This document shows positions 12,848 to 15,964 of a stretch of 64,000 bases of DNA, piece by piece. Numbering within the stretch: the stretch's first letter is position 1; each line of letters begins with the position of its first letter. A model generated the notes under the pieces. That model ran no database searches, was not told the origin of the DNA, and saw only the letters and a list, made by a program, of their open reading frames with translations. Source of the stretch: Desulfocapsaceae bacterium (GTDB lineage Bacteria; Desulfobacterota; Desulfobulbia; Desulfobulbales; Desulfocapsaceae); contig JARLHL010000015.1 of the NCBI GenBank assembly GCA_031292275.1, positions 1-64,000 of the forward strand, written 5' to 3'. Both the position numbers and the translations under genes were made by a program.

Positions 12848-15820
12848 TCAGCCTTTCCTGGTCCGTTGCAGAGCCCTCAGGATGGACCGGTCGAGAGAAA
12901 GCGGCAGCCTGACAATACTGCCGGCCTTGTTTTTAAACAGGAAATATCCATGTTCCAGGCCATGGAGAAAAAGGTCCCTGGTCATCTCCACGTCCTGACG
13001 GCAATAGGAGACGATCTCGCGGATCTTGCCCTCCTTATACCACTTGAGTGCCTGGAGTCCGTCCGCCGACTTATTGACCCCCAGGGTATGCTCTGCAAGC
13101 TTGTCCAGGCTCAGCCGGTACCCTAGATGATTACTGACCTCCTCCAGCAGATCGATGGTGGGCAGGGCATCAAGCCGGGCTGTCGAATAACCGGCCAGGA
13201 CCTGGTTGTCAAATCGCTTATTATTGAAACCGACAATCAGATCGAGGCCCATGAGATGCTCGACCAGATGATCGATCTCGTGCTCCAGATAGGTCACATA
13301 GCCTTCCAGCTGCGAATCATAGACGACAGCCACAGAGATCCCCATCTTGTCCGCCCTCTGCCATCCGCCCACCTCCTCGGCCGAGCGCATGGTCTCCAGA
13401 TCGAAGACCCCGTAATGGCCAGGGAGCGCATCCAGGCCCCGGATCGCCTCTCCCCGAGCTGTAATGTCGGGCAGATCTATCTTTTTGAATCCGGCTTGCG
13501 GCGGGCTGCCGGCTGCATGGCCGGCTGAAGGTTTCGATTGGTAGATAAGGTCGATCAGGCGGATGCAGGCCAGCTTGTCGATGGGCCGGTTCCCCGATCC
13601 GCATTTGGGCGAATGCACGCAGGAGGGACAACCGTTTTCACAGGGGCAGGAGCGCACGGCCTCGGCGGTGCGGGATAAGAGCTGGTCAAACTGCAGGTAG
13701 GCCTCGCTGGCAAGGCCGATACCGCCGGGATGGCCGTCATAGACGAAGATGGTGGCAATCCCGGTCTGTTCATGGACAGGACAGGAGATGCCGCCGATAT
13801 CGTTGCGATCGCAGAGGACAACCAGAGGAAACAGCGAGATCAGCGCATGCTCCAGGGCATGGATGGCCCCCATGAAATGCAGGCGATCCGCCTCCATGGT
13901 CTGCTGGACAGGATCGGGGATCTCCAGCCAGAGCCCTTCGGTCTCGAAGGTCTGGGGCGGCAGGTCCAGCGCCAGGGTAGCCACCAGCTTCTGGGTCGAA
14001 TTATTACGCTTTTGATAGCCTGTGACCCGTTCGGTAACCCTCAGCCTGCCCGTGGAAATCCTGCAGCCGAAGATCATCTTTGTCTGTGTGATTTCGATTA
14101 TCTCGGTCTGCTTGCCGCTCATGGCCCGGGTAAAATAGTTTCCCTTCATCCCCGTCACCACCACCTCGCGGCTCAGCATATCGAGCTTTTCCACCAGCCA
14201 GGTCTGGGCCTGATGCAGGTATACTGCCCCGGGATGGCATTCCTTCAGGGCTCGTGCGGCATCGATTTCCCCCAGGATACATCCATCCTGACTGTTGATG
14301 ATGGTCAGCTGCGATCCCGAGCCCCTGAGGCTGACCAGCCGTTGCGGTCGCTTCCGGGTCGCAAACCAGGCCTCGCCTCCGGAGGACTGCAACAGGACGG
14401 AACGGGCGGTGAGCGAAGCGACGCTCTCCCGGACCTGCTGCTGCTGCAGGAGAGGTTCATCCGCTGCAAGCGGGATCTCGGCGGCAGCGCAGTGAAGATG
14501 CTGTTCCATGATGGCGGGATTAGCGGGGTTGAGCGCCGCCGATTCAACATCCCGGGCGAAAAAATCCTCAGGATGCCGCATAAAGTACTGATCCAGCGCA
14601 TCTTCCTGGGCGATCATGATAATTGCCGACTCCTGCCCGCCCCGGCCAACCCTGCCGCCCCGCTGCCAGGCGGCCATGATCGAACCCGGATACCCAACCA
14701 GGATACAAAGATCCAGATCACCGATATCGATGCCCAGCTCCAGAGCGGAGGTGGAGATGACACCCAGCAGCTCGCCGCTGTTCAGGCGCCGTTCTATCTC
14801 CCGCCGCTCTTCAGGCAGAAATCCGGCCCGATACGAGCTCAGGGCATCGGCCAGGGGGCCGAGACGGGGCCTGGTCCAGACGGTAATGAGCTCCGTCATC
14901 TTTCGGGACTGGGTGTAGACGATGGTTCGCAGCCCTCTTTTCAATGCGGCCTCGAGCAGCTGGCAGGCAGTATAGGCGGCTGAATCCCAGGGGTTTAGAA
15001 AGAGCATATCCCGCCCTGACCGCGGTGCTCCCGTCTCGCTGACGACCTCGACCTCACGGCCGAGCAGGGTCCGACCAAGCTCGCCGGGATTTCCAATGGT
15101 CGCCGAGGCCATCACGAAGATCGGATAGGCACCATGTTCAGCTGCAATCCTTTGCAGCCTCCGGATCACCCAGGCCATATGCGAGCCGAACACTCCGCGA
15201 TAGGTATGGACTTCATCGATTATCACGAATTTGAGATGAGCCCAAAAGTGTCCCCAACTGCGATGAAAGGGCAGCAGGGAGAGATGGAGCATGTCGGGAT
15301 TGGTGATCAGGACCGGTGGAGGCTGATCCCGGATCCGCCTCCTGGCGGTGGCCGGGGTGTCTCCGTCATAAATAGCCCCGATGGCCGGATGCCGTAGCGC
15401 CGCTGGGAGCCGGGCTGCGATTTCCCGGAGGGTCCGCAGCTGATCCTGGGCCAAGGCCTTGAGAGGAAAGAGATAGAGGGCACGCGCCTCCGGATTGCAA
15501 AGGAGCTCCTGCAGGACCGGCAGGTTATAGATAAGGCTTTTTCCCGATGCCGTCGGGGTCGCAACGATGATATCCCTTTGCCGGGCAATGGCGTTAAGGG
15601 CCTTCTGCTGATGGGAGTACAGGCTGCGGATACCGGCCGCAGACAGACATCCGCGCAGGGCCTCGGACACAGAGGCTTCCGGGGCTGCCAACACGGCAGA
15701 AATCGCAGGAAACCTCCGGTGAAAAGCTACTTGCGGGCCAAACTTCGGAGATTTCTTCAAGGCCTCGATGTAGTCCGGAAGGGCCTTCTCCGGACCGCTG
15801 GAACTGATGGTATTTCCCAT
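12848..15820 (-). CDS. MrfA-like DEAD/DEAH helicase fused to a DEDD exonuclease domain
   Basis: This 990-residue protein starts with a superfamily 2 helicase: Walker A ATPTASGKS (88-96), DEVH at 202-205, SATI, then STSALELGIDIGDLD and GGRVGRGGQ in the second RecA domain. A DUF1998-type region follows with the four-Cys cluster CPCENGCPSCVHSPKC, as in YprA/MrfA helicases. From about 800 a separate RNase H-fold domain begins: FDLET (D807, E809), FNNKRFDNQ (D871) and YCRQD (Y939, D943), the pattern of DEDDy 3'-5' exonucleases. In Bacillus subtilis the helicase MrfA and the exonuclease MrfB are separate neighbouring genes acting in UvrABC-independent mitomycin repair; here both activities seem joined. 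It is divergent from the tyrA fusion gene. The DNA repair role is inferred from that family. Confidence 0.85.
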   Translation of the reverse strand: MGNTISSSGPEKALPDYIEALKKSPKFGPQVAFHRRFPAISAVLAAPEASVSEALRGCLSAAGIRSLYSHQQKALNAIARQRDIIVATPTASGKSLIYNLPVLQELLCNPEARALYLFPLKALAQDQLRTLREIAARLPAALRHPAIGAIYDGDTPATARRRIRDQPPPVLITNPDMLHLSLLPFHRSWGHFWAHLKFVIIDEVHTYRGVFGSHMAWVIRRLQRIAAEHGAYPIFVMASATIGNPGELGRTLLGREVEVVSETGAPRSGRDMLFLNPWDSAAYTACQLLEAALKRGLRTIVYTQSRKMTELITVWTRPRLGPLADALSSYRAGFLPEERREIERRLNSGELLGVISTSALELGIDIGDLDLCILVGYPGSIMAAWQRGGRVGRGGQESAIIMIAQEDALDQYFMRHPEDFFARDVESAALNPANPAIMEQHLHCAAAEIPLAADEPLLQQQQVRESVASLTARSVLLQSSGGEAWFATRKRPQRLVSLRGSGSQLTIINSQDGCILGEIDAARALKECHPGAVYLHQAQTWLVEKLDMLSREVVVTGMKGNYFTRAMSGKQTEIIEITQTKMIFGCRISTGRLRVTERVTGYQKRNNSTQKLVATLALDLPPQTFETEGLWLEIPDPVQQTMEADRLHFMGAIHALEHALISLFPLVVLCDRNDIGGISCPVHEQTGIATIFVYDGHPGGIGLASEAYLQFDQLLSRTAEAVRSCPCENGCPSCVHSPKCGSGNRPIDKLACIRLIDLIYQSKPSAGHAAGSPPQAGFKKIDLPDITARGEAIRGLDALPGHYGVFDLETMRSAEEVGGWQRADKMGISVAVVYDSQLEGYVTYLEHEIDHLVEHLMGLDLIVGFNNKRFDNQVLAGYSTARLDALPTIDLLEEVSNHLGYRLSLDKLAEHTLGVNKSADGLQALKWYKEGKIREIVSYCRQDVEMTRDLFLHGLEHGYFLFKNKAGSIVRLPLSLDRSILRALQRTRKG

Positions 15821-15964
15821 TATTTTTTAATTTGGTTGCTTAAACAAGGGAGAATGTATACTCTGCTTTGCTGGCGGTTCATCAGCTGCGGGAGCAGCCG
15901 CGGAAACGCAAGGCGTCTTCCAGCAAAAGCCATTGATTCTAAAAGGGTATCACGTTTTTCGCTT

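Follow-up and report, generated by a model that had tools for sequence, protein, structure and literature searches.

The fused gene and its product

The window is the whole stretch of DNA analysed, 64,000 nucleotides of a Desulfocapsaceae bacterium (GenBank assembly GCA_031292275.1, contig JARLHL010000015.1, positions 1 to 64,000). Its reverse strand carries a gene for a protein of 990 amino acids (aa), in which an MrfA-type helicase is followed by a C-terminal DEDDy exonuclease domain. Features are given with window coordinates, strand and residues; E is the expectation value, and A2 is an alignment of 13 fusions.

12848..15820 (-), whole gene: open reading frame (ORF) of 990 aa, ATG start; MrfA-type helicase and C-terminal DEDDy exonuclease; from the ORF, its translation and 12 full-length homologous loci.
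15092..15616 (-), DEAD domain (RecA1): residues 69-243; GKS 93-95, DEVH 202-205, SAT 239-241; Pfam PF00270, E 1.9e-30; residues invariant in A2.
14636..14962 (-), Helicase_C (RecA2): residues 287-395; QRGGRVGR 386-393; Pfam PF00271, E 1.4e-13; residues invariant in A2.
14321..14530 (-), winged-helix domain (WHD_HRQ1): residues 431-500; Pfam PF22982, E 9.1e-10.
13616..13855 (-), MrfA Zn-binding domain (MZB/DUF1998): residues 656-735; Pfam PF09369, E 4e-24.
13601..13648 (-), cysteine cluster C725, C727, C731, C734, C740: the first four invariant and C740 nearly so in the 13 fusions.
13448..13528 (-), linker, probably flexible: residues 765-791; its predicted local distance difference test (pLDDT) stays below 50 when the whole chain is modelled.
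12851..13432 (-), DEDDy exonuclease domain: residues 797-990; D807, E809, D871, Y939, D943; from Pfam, AlphaFold, fold matches and conservation.

Full-length homologues occur at 12 other loci, at 59-75% identity. One homologue, 63% identical, belongs to Desulfopila aestuarii, a culturable relative. The fusion is not due to chance, because these loci exist and the tail is modelled with confidence (below); the one-chain arrangement given in a preliminary description of the locus is thereby upheld. The helicase motifs and the five catalytic residues of the tail are all invariant in A2.

The helicase part is of MrfA/YprA type, as first described. Superfamily 2 (SF2) core, MZB/DUF1998 domain and four cysteines are all present, and residues 31-737 match the solved MrfA/YprA of Bacillus subtilis at E 1e-157 in a sequence search. 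All Pfam matches of the whole protein lie above the curated cut-offs; ResIII is also matched. The related helicase model TIGR03817 gives 751.7 bits, under its cut-off of 874.1. That cut-off is reached in none of the 395 genomes of the set from the window's phylum, Desulfobacterota (named relatives Desulfopila and Desulfocapsa), and in one of 14 control genomes, so that TIGR03817 is to be read as a subfamily model and not as the MrfA family. The B. subtilis protein (PDB 6znp, 6znq, 6zns) has the SF2 core, winged helix and Zn-binding cluster in common with the window protein; as a structural match of the full-length model, which is weak, MrfA gives Z 24.1 over 574 aligned residues at a root-mean-square deviation (rmsd) of 14.2. 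It differs in having no exonuclease tail, its partner MrfB being a separate protein (PMC11194089, available text).

Helicase and nuclease are suggested by the model to be joined by a flexible linker: residues 765-791 fall below pLDDT 50 in a full-length model of pLDDT 70.4. Where the fused row is full-length, the DxE motif follows the last cysteine at a distance of 54-130 residues, with a median of 61. The AlphaFold modelling of the fusion proposed earlier gave a confident model of the tail, and fell short for the arrangement of the whole chain (predicted template modelling score, pTM, 0.52).

Fold and active site of the tail

RNase_H_2 matches residues 828-950 (E 8e-7 in the whole protein, 3.4e-8 with the tail alone) and DNA_pol_A_exo1 matches residues 866-951 (Pfam). 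Modelled alone from a 23-row alignment, the tail reaches pLDDT 96.0 and pTM 0.92. Among folds, the best matches come from DNA polymerases of family B and of T7 type, in their proofreading exonuclease domains: 5mdn (Z 14.9, rmsd 2.9, 164 residues aligned) and 6p7e (Z 14.7, rmsd 3.5, 162 aligned). The DEDD fold proposed for the tail is accordingly recovered. Likeness to these DEDDy proofreading domains is in fold, at 14-20% identity among the listed matches; the tail differs in having no polymerase attached. Against the assignment, a whole-genome RNase_H_2 search at E 0.001 returned another gene and missed the tail. No solved relative of the tail was found in PDB by phmmer up to E 10, and a 13-row tail profile gave there a best E of 0.18, to unrelated proteins; since this profile search gave nothing credible, the fold assignment rests on the model and Pfam.

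The residues D807, E809, D871, Y939 and D943 were numbered correctly in the preliminary description, and the DEDDy site is intact. All 30 fused tails of one set, representing 29 distinct sequences, retain the five residues, as do 35 of 36 in a wider set; the exception, L228 (genome G073), is a fused homologue with N at both 807 and 943, its active site naturally changed. By sequence and model, the tail is a DEDDy exonuclease domain of the DnaQ superfamily, with an RNase H-like fold and the residues D, E, D, Y, D. It would act as a 3'-5' exonuclease.

An editor of replication forks, with the exonuclease proofreading or resecting stalled 3' ends and the helicase remodelling the fork, outside adduct repair, is a rather unlikely reading. 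It draws on the polymerase proofreading domains matched by the fold, on the best PHROG of the tail (DNA polymerase exonuclease subunit, E 1.3e-11) and on the clamp-binding-like motifs of standalone relatives described below. Structural similarity, however, does not show function, and in B. subtilis the helicase family has a known role in mitomycin repair (PMC11194089, available text).

Activity on RNA, in the manner of RNase D and with the protein serving RNA turnover, is highly improbable. DNA_pol_A_exo1 does match, besides the tail, a second gene of the same genome, of 374 aa, which we take to be RNase D; but all 50 structural matches listed for the tail are DNA polymerases. MrfA, too, is a DNA helicase (PMC11194089, available text).

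Distinction of the tail from MrfB

MrfB is a DEDDh exonuclease (H258) with a C-terminal tetratricopeptide repeat (TPR) domain (PMC11194089, available text). What it shares with the tail is the DEDD exonuclease type, the pairing with an MrfA helicase and a match to RNase_H_2; it is a separate protein, whereas the tail is covalently joined. With phmmer the tail gives no match to the solved MrfB (PDB 8un9) at E values up to 10, against E 4.1e-29, together with matches to TPR chains, for a positive control from the same phylum, the MrfB of genome G272, encoded beside an MrfA helicase. TPR families are absent among the Pfam matches of the whole protein and of the tail. MrfB (8un9) is also absent among the 50 structural matches listed for the tail, though the folds may be similar all the same.

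Profiles separate the two groups without overlap of scores. The tail-family profile gives 213-340 bits for fused tails, with 186 for L065, which a contig end truncates, and no more than 20 bits for YprB/MrfB rows; the YprB/MrfB profile gives 97-341 bits for its own rows and at most 31 bits for fused tails. Since the profiles were built from such rows, own scores are high by construction and the low cross scores are the telling ones. In a 76-row DEDD tree, containing 30 fused tails (two from one genome, G150), 45 tail-family rows are split from 31 YprB/MrfB rows with a Shimodaira-Hasegawa-like approximate likelihood ratio of 100, at a point where long branches meet, which calls for caution. At the position of Y939, Tyr is present in all fused (30), standalone (5), viral-contig (10) and short-YprB (16) rows, and all 15 MrfB rows have His. 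Because short YprB also has Tyr, this residue separates the tail from MrfB and not from YprB at large. The helicases agree: in a 58-row helicase tree the fused ones group apart from those beside mrfB.

Identity of the tail with MrfB is rejected by the profile scores, the tree, Tyr in place of His and the missing TPR and 8un9 matches, and the MrfB-like tail of the preliminary description is not supported. On this evidence the tail is a DEDDy family distinct from MrfB. A true MrfA-MrfB fusion, in which the genes of an mrfAB operon merged and a mitomycin-specific function was kept, has in its favour the RNase_H_2 match, a Pfam family also matched by MrfB/YprB; the missing 8un9 and TPR matches, the separation by profiles and tree, Tyr in place of His and the separate grouping of the fused helicases oppose it, and it is very unlikely.

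The window's own genome has in addition a separate YprB-like RNase_H_2 gene of 277 aa (L001 1243-2076, contig C2), which matches the solved MrfB only at E 0.006. It lies directly downstream of a frame resembling a DEAD-box RNA helicase cut down to its C-terminal portion.

Distribution in Desulfobacterota

The survey of Desulfobacterota proposed earlier finds the architecture common. The tail family is present in 120 of the 395 genomes, in 117 of them within a frame of at least 581 aa. Shorter tail frames are of 219 aa (G228, genome without a helicase match), 216 aa (G390, where tail and helicase frames both reach contig ends), 262 aa (G293, perhaps a contig split) and 188 aa (a second tail copy in G102). 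An MrfA-type helicase is present in 180 of the 395: in 119 of the 120 tail genomes, and without the tail in 61.

Among the matches listed, an RNase_H_2 frame of at least 400 aa is found in at least 45 of the 61 helicase-only genomes and in at least 3 of the 120 tail genomes, a contrast that would follow from the tail taking the place of MrfB. The three tail genomes are G277 (403 aa), G102 and G330 (1,128-1,139 aa). In the last two, the RNase_H_2 domains (G102 C99:15243-15773; G330 C35:14496-15026) lie inside the long open frames. True MrfB genes adjoin other MrfA helicases in the same phylum.

All 30 fused helicases fall together in the 58-row helicase tree (support 94/91), next to helicases with no nuclease within the stretch fetched around the locus. 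Dropped from this tree were L148, labelled as having no nuclease near though its frame runs to the contig end, and 17 other locus ids (duplicates and near-copies). A 44-row tree that takes in more divergent sequences supports the fused group at only 62. Judged from these trees, a single origin of the fused helicases is likely. Tail and helicase are both absent in three sampled genomes of the window's own family, so that the fusion gene is patchy.

Standalone relatives in other phyla and in viruses

In a scan of named genomes, relatives of the tail that stand alone turned up in two Nitrospinae records and one Parcubacteria record, with 43-48% identity and no helicase match at E 1e-8 in these three genomes. 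Wider sets were built around two of the records: 77 Nitrospinota genomes around L017 (Nitrospinae) and 379 Patescibacteria genomes around L019 (Parcubacteria), the phylum names being taken from these two records. The tail family is present in 62 of the 77 Nitrospinota-set genomes, in 60 as frames of 166-269 aa. It is fused in G401 (977 aa), and in G399 tail and helicase share a 659-aa frame that follows a broken frame of 328 aa. Strong MrfA-type matches in this set are confined to G401 and G399; that of G407 is partial (E 1.6e-32). The Patescibacteria set has the family in 102 of 379 genomes, in frames of 191-289 aa. Distant relatives (25-34% identity) occur on at least 15 viral contigs and in one Bdellovibrio phage (two records). 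The first catalytic Asp is Gly in 1 of 10 viral rows of the 76-row tree.

An 89-row tree holds 36 fused tails and 20 Patescibacteria rows (18 distinct); its viral rows L133 and L136 are trimmed beyond the first catalytic columns, and fuller viral rows stand in the 76-row tree. Patescibacteria rows are an outer group (100/91). Nitrospinota rows, together with L075, fall among the fused tails (99/89). A single clade of all fused tails is rejected (approximately unbiased test, p-AU 0.00045; the group had been looked at before the test), so the standalone Nitrospinota forms lie among fused tails. The simplest reading of the tree is that the nuclease of a fused ancestor survived in Nitrospinota after loss of the helicase; alternatively, fusion may have happened repeatedly.

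Several loci of these sets have further features. At L196 (G399) the helicase is split over the 328- and 659-aa frames with the nuclease intact, by assembly error or in a decaying helicase. A small similar gene, RNase H-like by eye, follows the standalone exonuclease in Patescibacteria loci L019 (6545-7030) and L187 (691-1209). Near the exonuclease relative of viral contigs L133 (2871-4475) and L136 (6742-8334) is a gene with the ATP-binding motif GPPGTGKT or GPPGCGKT, perhaps a helicase.

Clamp-binding-like peptide of the standalone forms

The clamp-binding consensus is QL[S/D]LF, more generally QxxLF, and Gly at the third motif position, as in QLGLF, weakens binding (PMC12309361, available text). 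Short Nitrospinota forms start MSEQLGLF, MAEQFDLF and similar; many Patescibacteria forms end QASLF, QAALF or QISLF. The motif was counted as Qxx[LIM][FL] in terminal segments and linkers and compared with shuffled sequences, related sequences not being independent trials. It is N-terminal in 26 of 28 Nitrospinota standalone forms (shuffled mean 1.05) and at the very C-terminus in 16 of 18 distinct Patescibacteria forms (shuffled mean 0.04). Fused proteins have it in 1 of 48 linkers (shuffled mean 1.55) and at 0 of 48 C-termini; for the two fused Nitrospinota-set proteins the counts are 0 of 2 linkers and 1 of 2 C-termini. It is absent from both standalone forms of the window's phylum (0/2) and from the viral-contig forms (0/11). 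With strict QxxLF the counts are 26 of 28 in Nitrospinota and 12 of 18 in Patescibacteria.

Control frames of the same loci, non-coding ones included, have the motif at the end in 0 of 56 and 0 of 61, and near the first Met in 0 of 40 and 1 of 37. Divergence among the Patescibacteria rows is wide, with a median pairwise identity of 46% and a minimum of 28%. The motif-less Nitrospinota short forms L212 and L214 lie outside a group of 21 (100/100), all members of which have the motif. From the motif, the standalone forms appear to bind the sliding clamp.

Proposed mode of action

The window protein is probably a single-chain helicase-exonuclease: an MrfA motor with a linker-tethered, non-MrfB DEDDy nuclease that trims the tracking strand in chromosomal repair, its standalone kin being tethered by the clamp. 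Residues to about 760, an MrfA/YprA-family SF2 helicase, would be expected to move 3'-5' on single-stranded DNA. MrfA itself works as a DNA helicase of 3'-5' polarity, and MrfB as an exonuclease of the same polarity (PMC12458937, available text). The leashed DEDDy 3'-5' exonuclease would follow the motor and trim the tracking strand from its 3' end during duplex opening; this strand is the most plausible one, because a 3'-5' motor leaves its 3' end behind. In this way the protein would clear damaged or blocked DNA during repair of the chromosome, the task that MrfA and MrfB share in B. subtilis. The work would be divided as between MrfA and MrfB, except that the partner is attached covalently and comes from another family. 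Candidate substrates are mitomycin adducts, other lesions and stalled forks. Standalone nucleases would be brought to DNA by the sliding-clamp-binding peptide, a tethering that the helicase would take over in the fusion. Sequence and model show the domains, their intact motifs, the fold, the family of the tail, its distribution, the conserved locus and where the clamp-like motif occurs or is missing; the enzymatic activities and their polarity, the choice of the tracking strand, clamp binding and the part in repair are inferred.

A wider proposal, for which the balance of evidence is slightly favourable, is a DEDDy family with an exchangeable tether. Its standalone members would dock on the clamp via QxxLF, C-terminal in Patescibacteria and N-terminal in Nitrospinota, and those of the window's phylum would be joined to MrfA and have no clamp peptide. 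Nitrospinota would have lost the helicase from a fused ancestor and gained the peptide; the window protein would be an MrfAB-like machine put together from a clamp-type exonuclease, with no contribution from MrfB.

Several observations weigh against the single-chain repair enzyme with its clamp-tethered kin. The full-length model is too weak to place the domains relative to each other. The doubly substituted L228, with two catalytic Asp changed to Asn, indicates that some lineages do not require nuclease activity. Most Nitrospinota-set genomes with a standalone form have no MrfA-type helicase, which points to a nuclease independent of MrfA unwinding. One of the two fused Nitrospinota-set proteins ends QLVLL, so that loss of the clamp motif on fusion is not absolute. 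Comparison of the region upstream of the gene with that of one lexA gene, for short words and palindromes, gave no convincing shared site; the comparison is a weak one. The literature, as far as available, holds no activity, phenotype or partner data for the window protein.

Relation to known systems

The fusion as such is of a known kind. YprA helicases fused to MrfB/YprB homologues are mentioned in a preprint, in one phrase and without detail in its available text (PMC12458937). This is very probably the same architecture in outline; the nuclease is there called an MrfB/YprB homologue, whereas here it is a distinct DEDDy family. A literature search around MrfA/MrfB, YprA and DEDDy fusions gave nothing else on the window protein; it gave no paper on the Patescibacteria and Nitrospinota exonuclease either, phyla at which it was not aimed. 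SaDinG, a DinG with an N-terminal DEDDh exonuclease, is likewise an SF2 helicase and a 3'-5' exonuclease in one chain, but differs in helicase family, in 5'-3' polarity and in the position and DEDDh type of the nuclease.

New are the identity of the nuclease and the clamp-like motif on standalone forms. One phylum thus has MrfA-type helicases with two exonuclease partners: MrfB, a DEDDh protein encoded separately, and a DEDDy enzyme from a different family that is part of the helicase chain. If this is true, helicase plus 3' exonuclease is a combination reached more than once. Natural variants (fused, standalone with a clamp-like motif, changed in the active site) allow coupling to be tested against mere recruitment. 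The exonuclease widespread in Patescibacteria and Nitrospinota is a candidate clamp client.

Neighbourhood of the gene

A prephenate-dehydrogenase-like gene lies upstream of the fusion in 12 of 12 loci, and CoaX-, LD-carboxypeptidase- and CutA-like genes lie downstream in 8 of 12; these are the names (prephenate dehydrogenase, CoaX, LD-carboxypeptidase, CutA) that we take the sequences to indicate. The conserved chromosomal neighbourhood favours a housekeeping role over defence. Membership in a defence branch of YprA, as an anti-phage protein, is accordingly scarcely probable, even though YprA helicases are found in DISARM, Dpd, Druantia, ARMADA and TALON and TALON members have RNase H-fold tails. 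The TALON-type tails are inactivated, whereas here the active site is intact in the window protein and in 35 of 36 relatives; moreover, the best 25 of 39 PADLOC matches peak within residues 51-446, in the motor, and none on the tail.

Between the fusion gene and its divergent neighbour there is a conserved stretch around ATACATTCTC...TTTAAGCAAC, at 15821-15910 of the window and upstream of the gene at L016, L010 and L015. It is perhaps the promoter of the divergent neighbour.

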